64,000 bases of DNA from Oligoflexia bacterium (GTDB taxonomy: Bacteria; Bdellovibrionota; Bdellovibrionia; Bdellovibrionales; Bdellovibrionaceae): positions 1 to 64,000 of the forward strand of contig BOLD01000009.1 in assembly GCA_016861345.1 (NCBI GenBank), read 5' to 3'. Below the pieces are notes generated by a model. The model worked only from the letters and a program-made list of their open reading frames with translations, was not told where the DNA came from and searched no databases. Position 1 is the stretch's first letter, and the number at the start of each line of letters is the position of its first letter. Positions 11,712-31,548 of the stretch are shown in pieces. Position numbers and translations under genes: made by a program.

Positions 11712-13175
11712 TTATTCGACAGTAACCCAGTTATCTTTCCAGAACTGAATTTTCTTACCATCTGTTGTTGTTCGTCTGACTTCAACAACAACAAGGACTC
11801 TCTCGCCTCTTCGAAGGCCAGACAGGCCTGCCGAGGTCTTAACGATCTGATTCACAGGGATTTTATAACTACCTTCAGGTGAGCGGATCAGGTCCGCTCG
11901 CTTAAATGTTTTTTCCCCTAAAGATGTTGTCCTTCCAGAAGAATTTCTTTGTGCAACAGTGATCGTGTACTCAGTTCGAACACTGATGGCATCAGGTGAT
12001 TGGTCAATCAGACCCACCACAGAGCTATCGCGCTCTCCCCGCATCACCGCAGAGATCAGAGATTCATTCTTCAGAACACCCTCGTCGATAATCACGGGCT
12101 TGGGTTCTGCCTTTAAGTAGACATCCATTCGACCAGTGGATTCGACCTGATTTTCGATGGTGTAGAGGAACTTTGAGTCCATCCAATTCAATCGAACTTC
12201 AGGCTTTGCCTCATTTCCGATTAATTCAACTTGGACGCTTTCTCTTTCGCCCTCAAGAAGTTGACTGTTTTGGGGGAAATGTATTTGCACACTGAGCGTC
12301 CATTGATGATCAAAGACGTCACGGTATCGAGTCACACAACAACGCTGTTCTTCACGGTATCTGACAACTTCACGTGTACGCAGTTCCTTGCGGTAACGGG
12401 TCACTGTGCGATACCGAGTCACAGGACGTGTATGTCGAACCTGCTCAAATCCACAACGCTCGCGCGTGACGGGATAGTCCTCGCAAACCTGTCGGTCAAA
12501 ACATCTTGGTGGATGCGGAGGTGGCGGCGGAGGATTTGGATATGGAGGTGGATTAGGCCTTGGAGCTGGTGGTGGCGGAGTTGGCCGTGGTGCAGGTGCC
12601 GGAGTTGGCCGTGGTGCAGGTGCCGGAGCTGGTGGAGGCGGCGGCGGAGTTGGCCGTGGTGCAGGTGCCGGAGCTGGGGGTGGTGATGGAGGATTTGGTC
12701 GTGGATTTGGTGGTGGATTTCCCGGATTGGGTCGCGGGCCACCTGGGTTTCCCGGATTGGGGCGTGGACCCGGCTCGGGACGAGCAGCAATATTGAATGC
12801 CAGTGTCGTCATGCCACCATTAATATTGGGCTGGCAGTCTCGAACTGTGCGACACCGACGCTCATAGTCCGTATAGGAATGGCATCGGTATTCATTTTCA
12901 TAGTAGTCTTCGTAATCGGTATAGGCCTCAGTTTCTTCGTAAGGCACGTCTTCATAATAAGTTTCCGTGGTCGTGTACGGAACTTGCTCCGTGTACGTGT
13001 CCTCGTAAGCCTCTTGTTTGTATGCATTTTTCACTAACTGAGTTTGAAGCGTGTTGCCCTCGCGGCTTGTGCGCGTCAAAACTTGAACTGAATTTTCTGC
13101 CGGTTCGGCAAAGGCCTGACTGAACATAAATATGCAGACAAGACTGATGCTCGTTCTTTTTTTATACTGGTGCAT
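11712..13175 (-). CDS. Secreted proline-rich / tyrosine-rich repeat protein
   Basis: Signal peptide; PAPAPRPTPPPP low complexity; YTDYEDYYENEYRC and RPVTRYRTVTRYRKELRTREVVRYRE segments. Confidence 0.75.
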   Translation of the reverse strand: MHQYKKRTSISLVCIFMFSQAFAEPAENSVQVLTRTSREGNTLQTQLVKNAYKQEAYEDTYTEQVPYTTTETYYEDVPYEETEAYTDYEDYYENEYRCHSYTDYERRCRTVRDCQPNINGGMTTLAFNIAARPEPGPRPNPGNPGGPRPNPGNPPPNPRPNPPSPPPAPAPAPRPTPPPPPPAPAPAPRPTPAPAPRPTPPPPAPRPNPPPYPNPPPPPPHPPRCFDRQVCEDYPVTRERCGFEQVRHTRPVTRYRTVTRYRKELRTREVVRYREEQRCCVTRYRDVFDHQWTLSVQIHFPQNSQLLEGERESVQVELIGNEAKPEVRLNWMDSKFLYTIENQVESTGRMDVYLKAEPKPVIIDEGVLKNESLISAVMRGERDSSVVGLIDQSPDAISVRTEYTITVAQRNSSGRTTSLGEKTFKRADLIRSPEGSYKIPVNQIVKTSAGLSGLRRGERVLVVVEVRRTTTDGKKIQFWKDNWVTVE

Positions 13176-16577: not shown

Positions 16578-16940
16578 ATGAAAACACTATTCGTATCATT
16601 TTTAACGATGATTTCATCTTTGTCTTTTGGTGCCACTGAGTTAACGCTGAAAGACCAAGTCCCCATCCCCCAAGTTGCCAATATGGCCGAAGTCGCCATT
16701 CTCAGTCGCTGCGACGTCGCCGCAAGATATGCCGACGAACTCCGGGTGCGCCGATACGAATACCGCAAATCCACAGTAGATGGACAAGTCATCCTCCACC
16801 ACACGGTCGTGATTGTTTTCGACTATGGGACAGATTTCATTGACTTTGTTCGTGTCCGTGTAGATGAGTTACACCCACAGGGCACCTTCGCCGTCGGCGC
16901 CATTGAAAGTCCTGATATCTGCGATCTTCCTAAAAACTAA
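16578..16940 (+). CDS. Small secreted protein of unknown function
   Basis: 120 aa with signal peptide MKTLFVSFLTMISSLSFGA. Confidence 0.55.
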   Translation: MKTLFVSFLTMISSLSFGATELTLKDQVPIPQVANMAEVAILSRCDVAARYADELRVRRYEYRKSTVDGQVILHHTVVIVFDYGTDFIDFVRVRVDELHPQGTFAVGAIESPDICDLPKN

Positions 16941-17389
16941 GTCAGGACAGCTCCGTAGGATTTTTCGTTCTCGATCTGTTTCTCGAATAGTTTTCCGATA
17001 CCATTGAGCTCTTTTGCCACAAGCTGAAGAATGTCGTCAGAAGACACCAAACCACAGGCATTTCCTGCAGCATCAACCACAACCATTCTGCGGACGCCTT
17101 CCCGTTCCATTTTATCAACGACAGTGGCAATGCCTTCCTCTTGCTGGACCTTAATGACATTTCCAGTCATCACACTTTCTACTCTTGAGCTTAGGGGTAT
17201 GTCTTCTGCAACTACACTGAGAACAATATCTCTGTCCGTCAAAATGCCAACAGGCTTTTTCTTTCCATTCGCTTCAACAATAACGACTCCACCAACATGT
17301 TTTTTCTTCATCAGTTGAGCCGCACTTCGCAGCGACGTTCCTCGCTCTACACAAACTAATTCTCTTGAGCATAAATCTGAAATAGGCAT
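16937..17389 (-). CDS. Tandem CBS-domain protein
   Basis: HVGGVVIVEANGKKKPVGILTDRDIV and GVRRMVVVDAAGNACGLVSSDDIL. Confidence 0.88.
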   Translation of the reverse strand: MPISDLCSRELVCVERGTSLRSAAQLMKKKHVGGVVIVEANGKKKPVGILTDRDIVLSVVAEDIPLSSRVESVMTGNVIKVQQEEGIATVVDKMEREGVRRMVVVDAAGNACGLVSSDDILQLVAKELNGIGKLFEKQIENEKSYGAVLT

Positions 17390-17440
17390 AATCTCTCCTT
17401 TCGAATAAAAGATGTTATCTTAAATTACAAACGCAACAAC

Positions 17441-18236
17441 AAAAGCAGTGGCGCGCCGGACGGAGCTTCTTTAGGGCTCCGTCCAACGACTCCACCACTT
17501 TCTTCAAAGAACTGCCCATTGGGATTTCCCCAGAACAGCTCAAGAGCTGGCATTCCAAACAAAGTATTCCACACCCTCTTACGCTTAAGCCACTCTCTGA
17601 GCATACACATAAGGTGATTGTGTTGACTTCATTCTCCGCATGTCAGGTTTTTCAGACCGACAGCCACCATATAAACACACACTAGAACCCTAGAGCGTGC
17701 CTGACTCCAAAGATCCTCACTCCTCTCAGAGCTTCGCGATCTTATCCGCCCTACCTGCGGGCATGGCAGCTGGTTTCACACACACCATCGATTTAAATCA
17801 ACAGCAAGAGCTTATCCAACCGCTGCCGCTAACGTACAGAGAAACGTCACCGACCCGCAAATAGTTCCGTGCTTTCATCACAACTCATTCTCGACATGTC
17901 GTCCCCCCATTTGCGAGAGAGGTTGTCAGCTGCCAACATCCAGTGCTTCACCAACAATAATAGCCTTCGCCCATGTCCAACGGCTCGGCCCTCTCTCCAG
18001 TCTCCCGTTGTTCGTTCCGAACGTTCACAGACTGCCAAATTTTCGAGGTTCGCTCGCGCTACAACCTGCCGATTTGCCAAGCACTGAACACGAACCTGCT
18101 CAACGCTTTGTCGATCAGCATACGAGAAGTTTTTCAGACCTCCCGTTGATCCAGGCTTCAATAGCAACTGGATAATTCCATTGTCGGGACTTTCGCCCGA
18201 TTGAGTTCTGACTAGCATCGCTGCAGTAGAACATAT
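17441..18236 (-). ncRNA. Large structured RNA, copy 1 (~0.8 kb), upstream of the CBS gene
   Basis: Homologous to 18891-19707; helices preserved by compensatory/wobble changes, GNRA loops, terminator-like 3' stem, sigma-54-like promoter at the 5' side. Confidence 0.8.
17447..17499 (-). terminator. Terminator-like stem at 3' end of RNA copy 1 (AGUGGUG/CGCCACU enclosing GGACGGAGC hairpin), then TTTTGTTGTT
   Basis: Inverted repeats 17447-17453/17493-17499 and 17458-17466/17476-17484; T-rich run downstream on minus strand. Confidence 0.55.
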
Positions 18237-18246
18237 CTCCCAAAGG

Positions 18247-18262
18247 AGCAGATTCTGTGCCA
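18247..18262 (-). promoter_or_regulatory. Sigma-54-like -24/-12 promoter for RNA copy 1 (TGGCACAGAATCTGCT)
   Basis: GG and GC with exact spacing of the TGGCAC-N5-TTGCW consensus. Confidence 0.7.
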
Positions 18263-18323
18263 AAGAAAATTTAACTTCATAACAGTCTTTATTGATTTAA
18301 AATTTTATTCTCGATTTGGATGA

Positions 18324-18334
18324 GACAGTTTGAC
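18324..18334. promoter_or_regulatory. Candidate enhancer-binding site GACAGTTTGAC
   Basis: Motif shared with other stress promoters in this window; about -93 from the predicted start of copy 1. Confidence 0.45.
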
Positions 18335-18373
18335 AGGGCGAGTGAACAGAAGTGTCACTCGCCCAGTAATGAA

Positions 18374-18835
18374 TTAATGAATGGGAATTTGTTTTGCTTT
18401 TAGAGCTTCAGTCTTGGGAATAGTGACTGTTAAAACTCCATTTTCAAATTTTGCATCAACTTTCTTTTCGTCAACAGGTCCAGGTAAAGTAAAACTTCTC
18501 ACATAAGAGCCATAATAAAGTTCTGATAGATATTTCTTTTTTGAATCTGTCTTTTTTTCCTCTTTTCGCTCAGCGCGAATGGTGATCTGGTCATTTTCTG
18601 CTTCGACCTTAACCTGATCCTTTGTAACACCAGGCAAGTCAAATTTCATGACGTAGTTATTGCCCTCCTCTGCAATTTCACAGGATGGGCTAAATGAAAA
18701 ATCACTGATCCCACTAGTTTTCTTTAAATTCATGAACTCATTGAACAATCGATCAAATGACTCCTGAACATCTGAAAAATCTCGAAATGGACTGAGACGC
18801 TTATTGTCGAACCATCGCTCGAGTGCTGTAGACAT
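18374..18835 (-). CDS. Hsp20 family small heat-shock protein
   Basis: Alpha-crystallin domain: FDLPGVTKDQVKVEAENDQITIRAER, FENGVLTVTIPK; SD GAGGAGG before ATG 18835. Confidence 0.92.
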   Translation of the reverse strand: MSTALERWFDNKRLSPFRDFSDVQESFDRLFNEFMNLKKTSGISDFSFSPSCEIAEEGNNYVMKFDLPGVTKDQVKVEAENDQITIRAERKEEKKTDSKKKYLSELYYGSYVRSFTLPGPVDEKKVDAKFENGVLTVTIPKTEALKAKQIPIH

Positions 18836-18890
18836 AAAATTCCTCCTCAATATGTTTATGTTTTGCATTAATCTTTTTTTGGTAACTAAT

Positions 18891-18957
18891 GAAAAAATAA
18901 AAGGCGGTGGCGCGCCAGACAGAATTTTGGAAGTTCATATCTAGCGGCTCCGCCACC
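18891..18957 (-). terminator. Terminator-like stem at 3' end of RNA copy 2 (GGUGGCG/CGCCACC) then TTTTATTTTTT
   Basis: Inverted repeat 18906-18912/18951-18957 followed on the minus strand by a T tract. Confidence 0.65.
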
Positions 18958-19707
18958 CAAATTGAAGAACTGCCCATTGGGATTTCCCCAGAACAGCTCA
19001 AGAGCTGACATTTCAAATAGAACATTCCTTCGTCGCTTTCTGCTTAAGCCACTCTCTGAGCATACGCAGAAAGTTTTCAAAGTTGGTTCTATTCTTAGCA
19101 CCGACACAGACACCAGTCCGGCACAGTACCGTCATCAAATCTTCCCAAGCGCTAACCTAAGAAGATCACTCCAAAGATCCTCGCCCTCCTCAAGGGCTTA
19201 ACCGATCTTATCCGCCCTACTCATGGGCATGGCAGCCGGTTTCGCTGGCACTACCAACTGTATCCAGTCAGCATCACAAGCTTATCCAACTGCTGCCGCT
19301 AACGCTCAGAGAAACGTCACCGACCCACAAGCAGTTCCGTGCTTTCATCACAACTCATTCTCAGCATGTCGTCCTTCCATTCTCCGGAGAAGCTGTTGGC
19401 TGCGACTATCCAGTTCTTCACCACCAGTGTTAGCCTTCACTCCTGTTCCCGAGCTCGGCCTTCTCACTCAGTCTCCCGTCGTTCGTTCCGAACGTTCAAA
19501 GACCAACGAATTTCCAAGGTTCGCTTTCGCTACGACCTGCCGATTCACCAAGTACTGAACACGAACATACTCAGTACTTTGTCGATCAGCTTACGGGAGG
19601 TTTTTATACCCCCCGTTGATCCAGGCTACAATAGCAACTGGACAATTCTATTGTCGGGACTTGCACCCGCCTGAGTTCTGACTAGCATCGCTGCAATCGA
19701 ACATGCG
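18891..19707 (-). ncRNA. Large structured RNA, copy 2 (~0.8 kb), upstream of hsp20
   Basis: See copy 1; includes a 43-nt block identical in both copies (18965-19007 = 17507-17549). Confidence 0.8.
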
Positions 19708-19717
19708 AAACAACAAA

Positions 19718-19733
19718 AGCAGATTTCATGCCA
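19718..19733 (-). promoter_or_regulatory. Sigma-54-like promoter for RNA copy 2 (TGGCATGAAATCTGCT)
   Basis: -24 TGGC / -12 TGCT at canonical spacing; equivalent position to copy 1. Confidence 0.7.
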
Positions 19734-19773
19734 CGGCCAATATGCGATTAATCTGCAAATAAATAGCACCGCC

Positions 19774-19800
19774 GTGACAAAATGGCAGTTATCTTGTCAC
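19774..19800. promoter_or_regulatory. Inverted repeat GTGACAA-N13-TTGTCAC, candidate shared enhancer site between RNA copy 2 and usp
   Basis: Centre about 80 and 88 bp upstream of the two divergent predicted starts; contains GACAAAATGGC. Confidence 0.55.
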
Positions 19801-24061: not shown

Positions 24062-24077
24062 AGCAAAGTAAGTGCCA
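24062..24077 (-). promoter_or_regulatory. Sigma-54-like promoter TGGCACTTACTTTGCT for the PRTase/esterase operon
   Basis: Perfect TGGCAC-N5-TTTGCT; predicted start about 28 nt before the ATG. Confidence 0.82.
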
Positions 24078-31217: not shown

Positions 31218-31548
31218 AAAACCTCCAATTTGATTATCGAAAATGATTCGTTGAGTGGCACCTTGCACCTTAAGTGCCAATGAAGCCGGCCCTAAAATCT
31301 ATTATATCGATTCTAGATTAGAATTATTCCGATAATCGGGATTCATGTCCGAAAGTCCGAAAAGCAACATTCTTGTGTTGAAAAAATTATTGAGATATTA
31401 GAGGTTGGCATAGTAATGAAGTCTGCGGTGAAAACTGTACGCTTTTCTGCCGATGGAGATTTCAGTTGTAGCCCCTTTTCAGCCCCTCGAGATATCAGTG
31501 ATAAAAAGTTTCAGCTAATTTCAAGTAGCTAGAAATGCCTTTTAAACT

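Follow-up and report, generated by a model that had tools for sequence, protein, structure and literature searches.

A putative domesticated group II intron-derived RNA with a predicted sigma-54 promoter in Bdellovibrionota

Introduction

Two long homologous stretches of DNA lie on the minus strand of a draft genome of an Oligoflexia bacterium (GCA_016861345.1, 85% complete), with an hsp20 gene in between, and neither contains a conserved open reading frame. The question raised by this locus is what kind of gene product the two stretches specify and whether it belongs to a known family. The original prediction, made from the DNA letters, described a selected large structured RNA in two copies and set it beside OLE, ROOL and GOLLD by size class, without assigning it to a known family. 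Here, the locus is compared with its homologues across Bdellovibrionota and with group II introns, from which spliceosomal RNAs and retroelements are considered to descend. Throughout, the window denotes the whole analyzed stretch of 64,000 nt (contig BOLD01000009.1, positions 1–64,000, forward strand); other genomes and loci are cited by our own G and L handles.

Results

Two paralogous RNA genes in a stress island

The two units are 77% identical over ~740 nt, confirming their homology, and share a 43-nt block that is exactly the same in both copies (17507–17549 = 18965–19007), as first noted. Their extents (Table 1) were set by aligning homologues end to end, with the start taken from the sigma-54 spacing and the end from the stem and U-run; the limits proposed earlier for copy 2 were retained, and those of copy 1 were revised to 17432–18236 from 17441–18236. 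No common reading frame is conserved on either strand across 11 homologues, in agreement with the original prediction, and a protein-coding gene was thereby ruled out. Copies 1 and 2 are two paralogous genes of one RNA. They are sisters in the tree (100/99), so the hsp20-linked and CBS-linked copies do not represent two ancient lineages. Since the promoter is in register in both copies, the whole unit was duplicated, and retrotransposition of one copy to a new site was ruled out on the same ground.

The stress island around the two RNAs encodes Hsp20, CBS proteins, a universal stress protein, a LonB-type protease and a phosphoribosyltransferase–erythromycin esterase. Elsewhere in the window, positions 11712–13175 (minus strand) encode a proline-rich protein with a low-complexity PPPAPAPAPRP tract.

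Table 1. Coordinates of the two RNA units, their elements and the adjacent genes in the window
Feature	Position	Strand	Remarks
RNA copy 2, predicted transcript ~817 nt	18891..19707	-	directly upstream of hsp20
RNA copy 1, predicted transcript ~805 nt	17432..18236	-	directly upstream of CBS-domain gene
hsp20 (PF00011)	18374..18835	-	begins ~56 nt past end of copy 2
CBS-domain protein gene (PF00571)	16937..17389	-	begins ~43 nt past end of copy 1
Predicted sigma-54 -24/-12 element, copy 2	19719..19733	-	TGGCATGAAATCTGC; same distance in 9/11 order-level copies
Predicted sigma-54 -24/-12 element, copy 1	18248..18262	-	TGGCACAGAATCTGC; same distance in 9/11 order-level copies
RF02003 group-II-D1D4-4 match, copy 2	19525..19672	-	67.0 bits, cut-off 49
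RF02003 group-II-D1D4-4 match, copy 1	18054..18202	-	55.1 bits, cut-off 49
Domain 1 equivalent, copy 2	19338..19704	-	closed by consensus helix 1; boundaries inferred
Domain 1 equivalent, copy 1	17868..18234	-	consensus structure; boundaries inferred
Domain 3 core equivalent, copy 2	19174..19209	-	AAGAUCG...CGAGGAUCUU; helices 23/24
Domain 3 core equivalent, copy 1	17709..17743	-	helices 23/24
Domain 5, copy 2	18967..18999	-	GAGCUGUUCUGGGGAAAUCCCAAUGGGCAGUUC; within 43-nt identical block
Domain 5, copy 1	17509..17541	-	GAGCUGUUCUGGGGAAAUCCCAAUGGGCAGUUC; identical to copy 2
3' hairpin in D6 place, copy 2	18903..18958	-	then UUUUAUUUUUU; helices 32/33
3' hairpin in D6 place, copy 1	17447..17500	-	then UUUUGUUGUU; helices 32/33

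Conservation of the RNA fold

A single copy folds at z = -7.8. The consensus of 11 order-level RNAs comprises 218 pairs with 95.4% of cells paired, and 133 of these pairs carry two-sided changes; none of 500 shuffles equalled the alignment on any of five measures, and pairing drops to 35–46% when partners are slid by 1–3 nt. Covariation, expected from the two copies, is thus borne out in a larger set of homologues, and the five helices (a) to (e) originally listed all recur in the 11-sequence consensus, as helix 8, helix 7, helix 4, helices 23/24 and helix 32, respectively. Over 49 phylum-wide copies the 5' part is 90.7% paired, with 593 two-sided cells against 179 ± 13 in shuffled alignments, although this alignment was built on the model and is biased in its favour. 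Domain 5 (D5), the most conserved stretch of the RNA, shows two-sided changes in nine pairs over 27 distinct sequences. At paired positions of the sense strand, G-U combinations outnumber A-C (345 versus 27), and the consensus energy is -233 for the sense versus -103 for the antisense strand, which supports the earlier assignment to the minus strand; an antisense-strand structure was rejected for its weaker fold and opposite G-U/A-C asymmetry. These substitution patterns indicate that the fold of the RNA family is under selection.

Domains 1, 3 and 5 of a group II intron

When the RNA region was scanned by cmscan against all 4227 Rfam families (E up to 10), only group II models matched at a meaningful score; the OLE, ROOL, GOLLD and HEARO covariance models, named at the outset as candidates, gave no match. 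Scores exceed the RF02003 threshold for the two window copies and for 7 order-level relatives, and distant members fall over or under it. The loop at 18186–18198 / 19656–19668, initially read as GNRA, proved to be the 7-nt UGNAAGU loop of the group II GGGUGNAAGUCCC element. Between D1 and D5 lies a D3-like element resembling CGGAUGAGGCCGUAGU...GCGAAGGGCCUCUG of the RT-bearing introns L075/L077 of the same class. A near-palindromic loop, GAACGUUCGGAACGAAC, was also observed in domain 1 (window 19475–19500, minus strand); it is nearly invariant within the window's clade and could be a kissing or dimerisation site.

The D5 hairpin of both copies has an AGC triad, 5 bp, a two-nt AY bulge and an upper helix, and reads GAGC-UGUUC...AU-GGGCAGUUC. 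The likeness is plainer in more distant family members: at L118, one of these, D5 is AGCCGUAU...ACGUACGG, in line with GAGCCGUAU...ACGUACGGUUC in the Rfam D5 consensus of true introns. Instead of a GNRA tetraloop, the 27 distinct D5 sequences have a 5-nt loop, NAAAN, mostly GAAAN. No match to the RNA family was obtained with RF00029 (Intron_gpII, D5+D6), which is blind to it because of this 5-nt loop and the altered domain after D5; true introns in three relatives, used as positive controls, were detected normally in both their D1D4 and D5–D6 parts. Domains 1–5 are retained in canonical order and, judging from these elements, both RNAs are descended from a bacterial group II intron. Of the original prediction, the selected large structured RNA in two copies stands, and a reading as an unaffiliated class is not supported, given the RF02003 match and the recognisable D5.

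Loss of splicing features

From intron position 1 onward, copy 2 reads GUUCG and copy 1 GUUCU in place of GUGYG; among the 11 order-level copies, the 5' end is GUUYN in 10 and GUGYG in none. A long hairpin, GUGGCG...CGCCAC in the window's clade, stands in the place of D6 and has no consistent bulged branch-point A. None of the RNA copies inspected contains a reverse transcriptase ORF, and a search for the group II maturase domain (PF08388) was negative in 32 of the 37 RNA-bearing genomes, among them that of the window, which is 85% complete. For EBS1/IBS1, no reliable assignment was reached. On these sequence criteria, the family lacks the defining features of a splicing intron that were tested (GUGYG, D6, IEP and 5' exon) and is therefore not to be filed as an intron.

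Predicted promoter, start and 3' end

Upstream of both copies lies TGGCAY-N7-GC, the -24/-12 element of sigma-54. A strict element precedes 26 of the 49 copies, 28–30 nt ahead of the RNA start, with a chance occurrence that we estimate ourselves at about 0.01 per copy; in a subgroup with a 5' extension the distance is 46–49 nt. Sigma-54 is encoded in 16 of 16 genomes tested. The -12 element ends ~15–17 nt ahead of intron position 1 in the window's clade, which places the predicted start about 4–6 nt ahead of that position and would leave hardly any 5' exon. The sigma-54 element is absent from the f12 copies and from G126/G136, so other promoters must serve there. At the opposite end, a 3' hairpin follows D5 throughout the family, and a U-run comes after it in both window copies and in most others. 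A consensus terminator scan picked up neither window hairpin, owing to the scan's loop limit. The promoter, start and terminator-like 3' end of the unit are predictions from sequence.

The motif GACAAA occurs upstream of 12 of 30 sigma-54 copies against 1.7 expected, in rows that are not independent, and weakly suggests a shared upstream activator motif. A dyad, TGACAA...TTGTCA, is located at window 19772–19800, 65–93 nt ahead of where copy 2 is predicted to start, and is a candidate activator site. Two further sigma-54-like sequences were observed on the minus strand of the window. One, TGGCACTTACTTTGC (24063–24077), lies about 40 nt ahead of the gene for phosphoribosyltransferase / erythromycin esterase (24023–21432) and suggests that the stress island may share the regulator of the RNA. 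The other, TGGCACTTAAGGTGC (31265–31279), is just upstream of ORF 31280–30597 (true start probably 31217), which encodes a small secreted protein resembling a Hint/intein-type domain.

Distribution across Bdellovibrionota

By blastn, homologues were found in 9 of 100 relatives, a figure that includes the window's genome and a short remnant in G010; an RF02003 search of the class added G126 and G136. R1, a covariance model of the first 181 nt of the RNA, matched in 38 of 369 genomes of the phylum. The distant R1 matches that were inspected are also free-standing RNAs with D5 and the 3' hairpin and without RT. In total, 49 RNA copies were counted in 37 Bdellovibrionota genomes, leaving out a weak R1 match at a contig end (G152). 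The distribution is patchy, and the named bearers are mostly metagenome-assembled genomes; RNA-bearing relatives are labelled Pseudobdellovibrionaceae, Bdellovibrionales, Bdellovibrio or Bdellovibrionota, apart from two other labels, one of them evidently wrong.

D5, with triad, 5-bp spacer, AY bulge and a helix in two parts, is present in 46 of the 49 copies; it is cut by a contig end in G280 and has been lost in G136 and G328, whose RNAs (L071:4867-5602, minus strand, and L130:2078-2900) keep the 5' domains and the 3' hairpin. Since these two copies lack D5, catalysis cannot be essential everywhere. Many distant copies have a disrupted triad pairing at the D5 base.

In Myxococcota, R1 matches are mostly weak, and those inspected are RT-bearing introns or fragments; across the two phyla covered, Bdellovibrionota and Myxococcota, the apparently free-standing form has so far been seen only in the former. 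Matches of a D5 pattern scan in Sciscionella and Myxococcaceae were discarded as looking like chance, in coding-like DNA. A phage or plasmid element was likewise rejected, with no match by distant blastn, and the distant-type D5 pattern had no match in viral contigs. A description of the RNA family was found neither in Rfam nor in the open-access papers searched.

Genes downstream of the RNA

Outside the window, the first gene on the same strand encodes Hsp20 in G019, G008 and G310a, a CBS protein in G014, G183a/c, G184b and G201, archease in G183b and G184a, a ribosome-hibernation protein in G328 and, by eye, an FtsH-like protease in G313b. In G093 the RNA is followed by a gene for an NtrC-type sigma-54 activator. 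A convergent gene faces the RNA in G017, G066, G174, G185b, G307b, G312a and G315b. Homologues of CBS1 (E<=1e-25) turned up in only 3 of the 66 family genomes, and all three genomes carry the RNA or its remnant.

Two arrangements were observed separately. At L125 and L137, the gene directly behind the RNA encodes archease and the next one, by eye, an RtcB-like RNA ligase; this neighbourhood has a possible link to RNA repair. In G010 (L022:5832-5980), a remnant of ~130 nt is all that is left of the RNA, with an intact sigma-54 element on one side and a CBS gene on the other; this is a natural deletion derivative.

Discussion

The RNA family appears to have left the intron state. We consider it quite probable that it is a domesticated, free-standing RNA derived from a group II intron, which has its own promoter, belongs to a stress regulon and probably acts in trans. 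In the proposed mechanism, the unit and stress genes such as those for Hsp20 and CBS proteins would be activated jointly under stress by sigma-54 and an enhancer-binding regulator, and some transcripts would extend into the stress gene that follows the RNA. Induced by stress, the structured RNA would adopt a D1–D5 group II scaffold and work in trans, most likely in complex with a protein; copies with the D5 triad and bulge may retain group II hydrolytic chemistry.

The placement of the window copies, which end 43–56 nt before a same-strand stress gene, can also be read as that of a cis-acting leader, in which the sigma-54 transcript would open with a group II-like sensor or attenuator and the 3' hairpin would decide on transcription of the stress gene. 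Similar placement recurs in all the Hsp20-, CBS- and archease-linked copies listed above, the G010 promoter and remnant still run straight into the CBS gene, and the few CBS1 homologues all accompany the RNA or its remnant. Against this stand the convergent genes next to several copies, the lack of relationship among the downstream genes, and the strong hairpin and U-run after most copies. We regard the leader as an unlikely, if serious, alternative, and trans action as considerably more plausible than a purely cis-acting role. How the domesticated RNA would act in trans is a separate matter. Laboratory D1-D3-D5 constructs, among them the aI5-gamma D135 ribozyme, cleave RNA in trans, and with the triad and bulge kept in most copies this makes trans catalysis a live option. 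A natural trans-acting group II ribozyme, a sigma-54-induced D1–D5 RNA lacking the branch-point domain that would cleave or rearrange other RNAs under stress, is nevertheless put forward only tentatively: the two D5-less copies and the weakened triad pairing in distant clades suggest that the scaffold may matter more than the chemistry.

Canonical D1–D5 order, the AGC triad and the AY bulge would also fit a functional group II intron without an ORF that lies in a 5' UTR and splices with the help of a maturase encoded elsewhere. We consider this very improbable: GUGYG and the bulged A of D6 are absent, transcription is predicted to begin ~5 nt ahead of intron position 1, a terminator-like hairpin closes the 3' end, and a maturase was detected in neither the window's genome nor most other bearers. 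Nor do the RNAs resemble the decaying remains of dead group II introns. A match to a known intron family had been named in advance as an outcome that would refute the original prediction, and one was found in RF02003. Decay would fit the missing D6 and IEP, the two D5-less copies and the deletion remnant in G010. It is at odds with the strong two-sided covariation, with D5 as the most conserved stretch, with the conserved promoter spacing and the paralogues, and with the phylum-wide persistence of a unit that has its own predicted promoter and 3' hairpin and no maturase, so that we give it slightly less credence still. Least probable of all is an unrelated large ornate RNA of the OLE, ROOL or GOLLD type with a merely local likeness to group II: similar size, ornate structure and the lack of a known function are shared, but only group II Rfam models match meaningfully, and D3 and D5 follow in group II order.

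With bacterial group II introns (RF02003, RF00029), the putative domesticated RNA shares the domain 1 match, the D3-like element, the D5 triad, 5-bp spacer and AY bulge, and the domain order; in contrast to them, it lacks GUGYG, the D6 branch-point A and an RT/maturase, has a 5-nt D5 loop (NAAAN), and has its own predicted promoter with almost no 5' exon. OLE, ROOL and GOLLD are comparable as large ornate bacterial RNAs of this size class. Among bacterial group II derivatives without IEP, the closest precedent is provided by the CP group II ribozymes ('T-large'), ~900-nt derivatives without IEP that are conserved in bacteria and whose role is unknown (Roth et al. 2021, PMC8637638). These have the order D5-D6-D1-D2-D3-D4, with internal splice sites and D6 present (PMC8637638), whereas the order here is D1-...-D5, without D6 or reversed splice sites. 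A CP group II ribozyme was rejected for the window RNAs, in which D5 lies ~700 nt 3' of the RNA start and the promoter directly 5' of D1. ORF-less bacterial group II introns such as C.te.I1 of C. tetani splice, and are rare and sporadic (Zimmerly & Semper 2015, PMC4424553); like them, the RNA family is group II RNA without IEP, but it is spread over the phylum and lacks splicing ends. The aI5-gamma D135 ribozyme is likewise a free group II core that has no D6; it is an engineered laboratory construct (used e.g. in PMC10255950) with a known substrate, whereas the RNA described here is natural.

According to the 2015 review, ORF-less group II derivatives in bacteria are rare and apparently short-lived, and few would have been overlooked unless their D5 is atypical (PMC4424553). 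The present family is a case of the atypical D5 foreseen by that caveat, with a 5-nt loop, phylum-wide occurrence, no D6 and an apparent stress regulon. The family is a tractable system in which to ask by what route a self-splicing intron turns into an RNA of its host, and whether the group II active site serves any purpose beyond splicing and retromobility. If the trans-acting ribozyme were to prove true, a bacterial group II core would have become a cellular RNA, as has been proposed for the ancestry of spliceosomal snRNAs.
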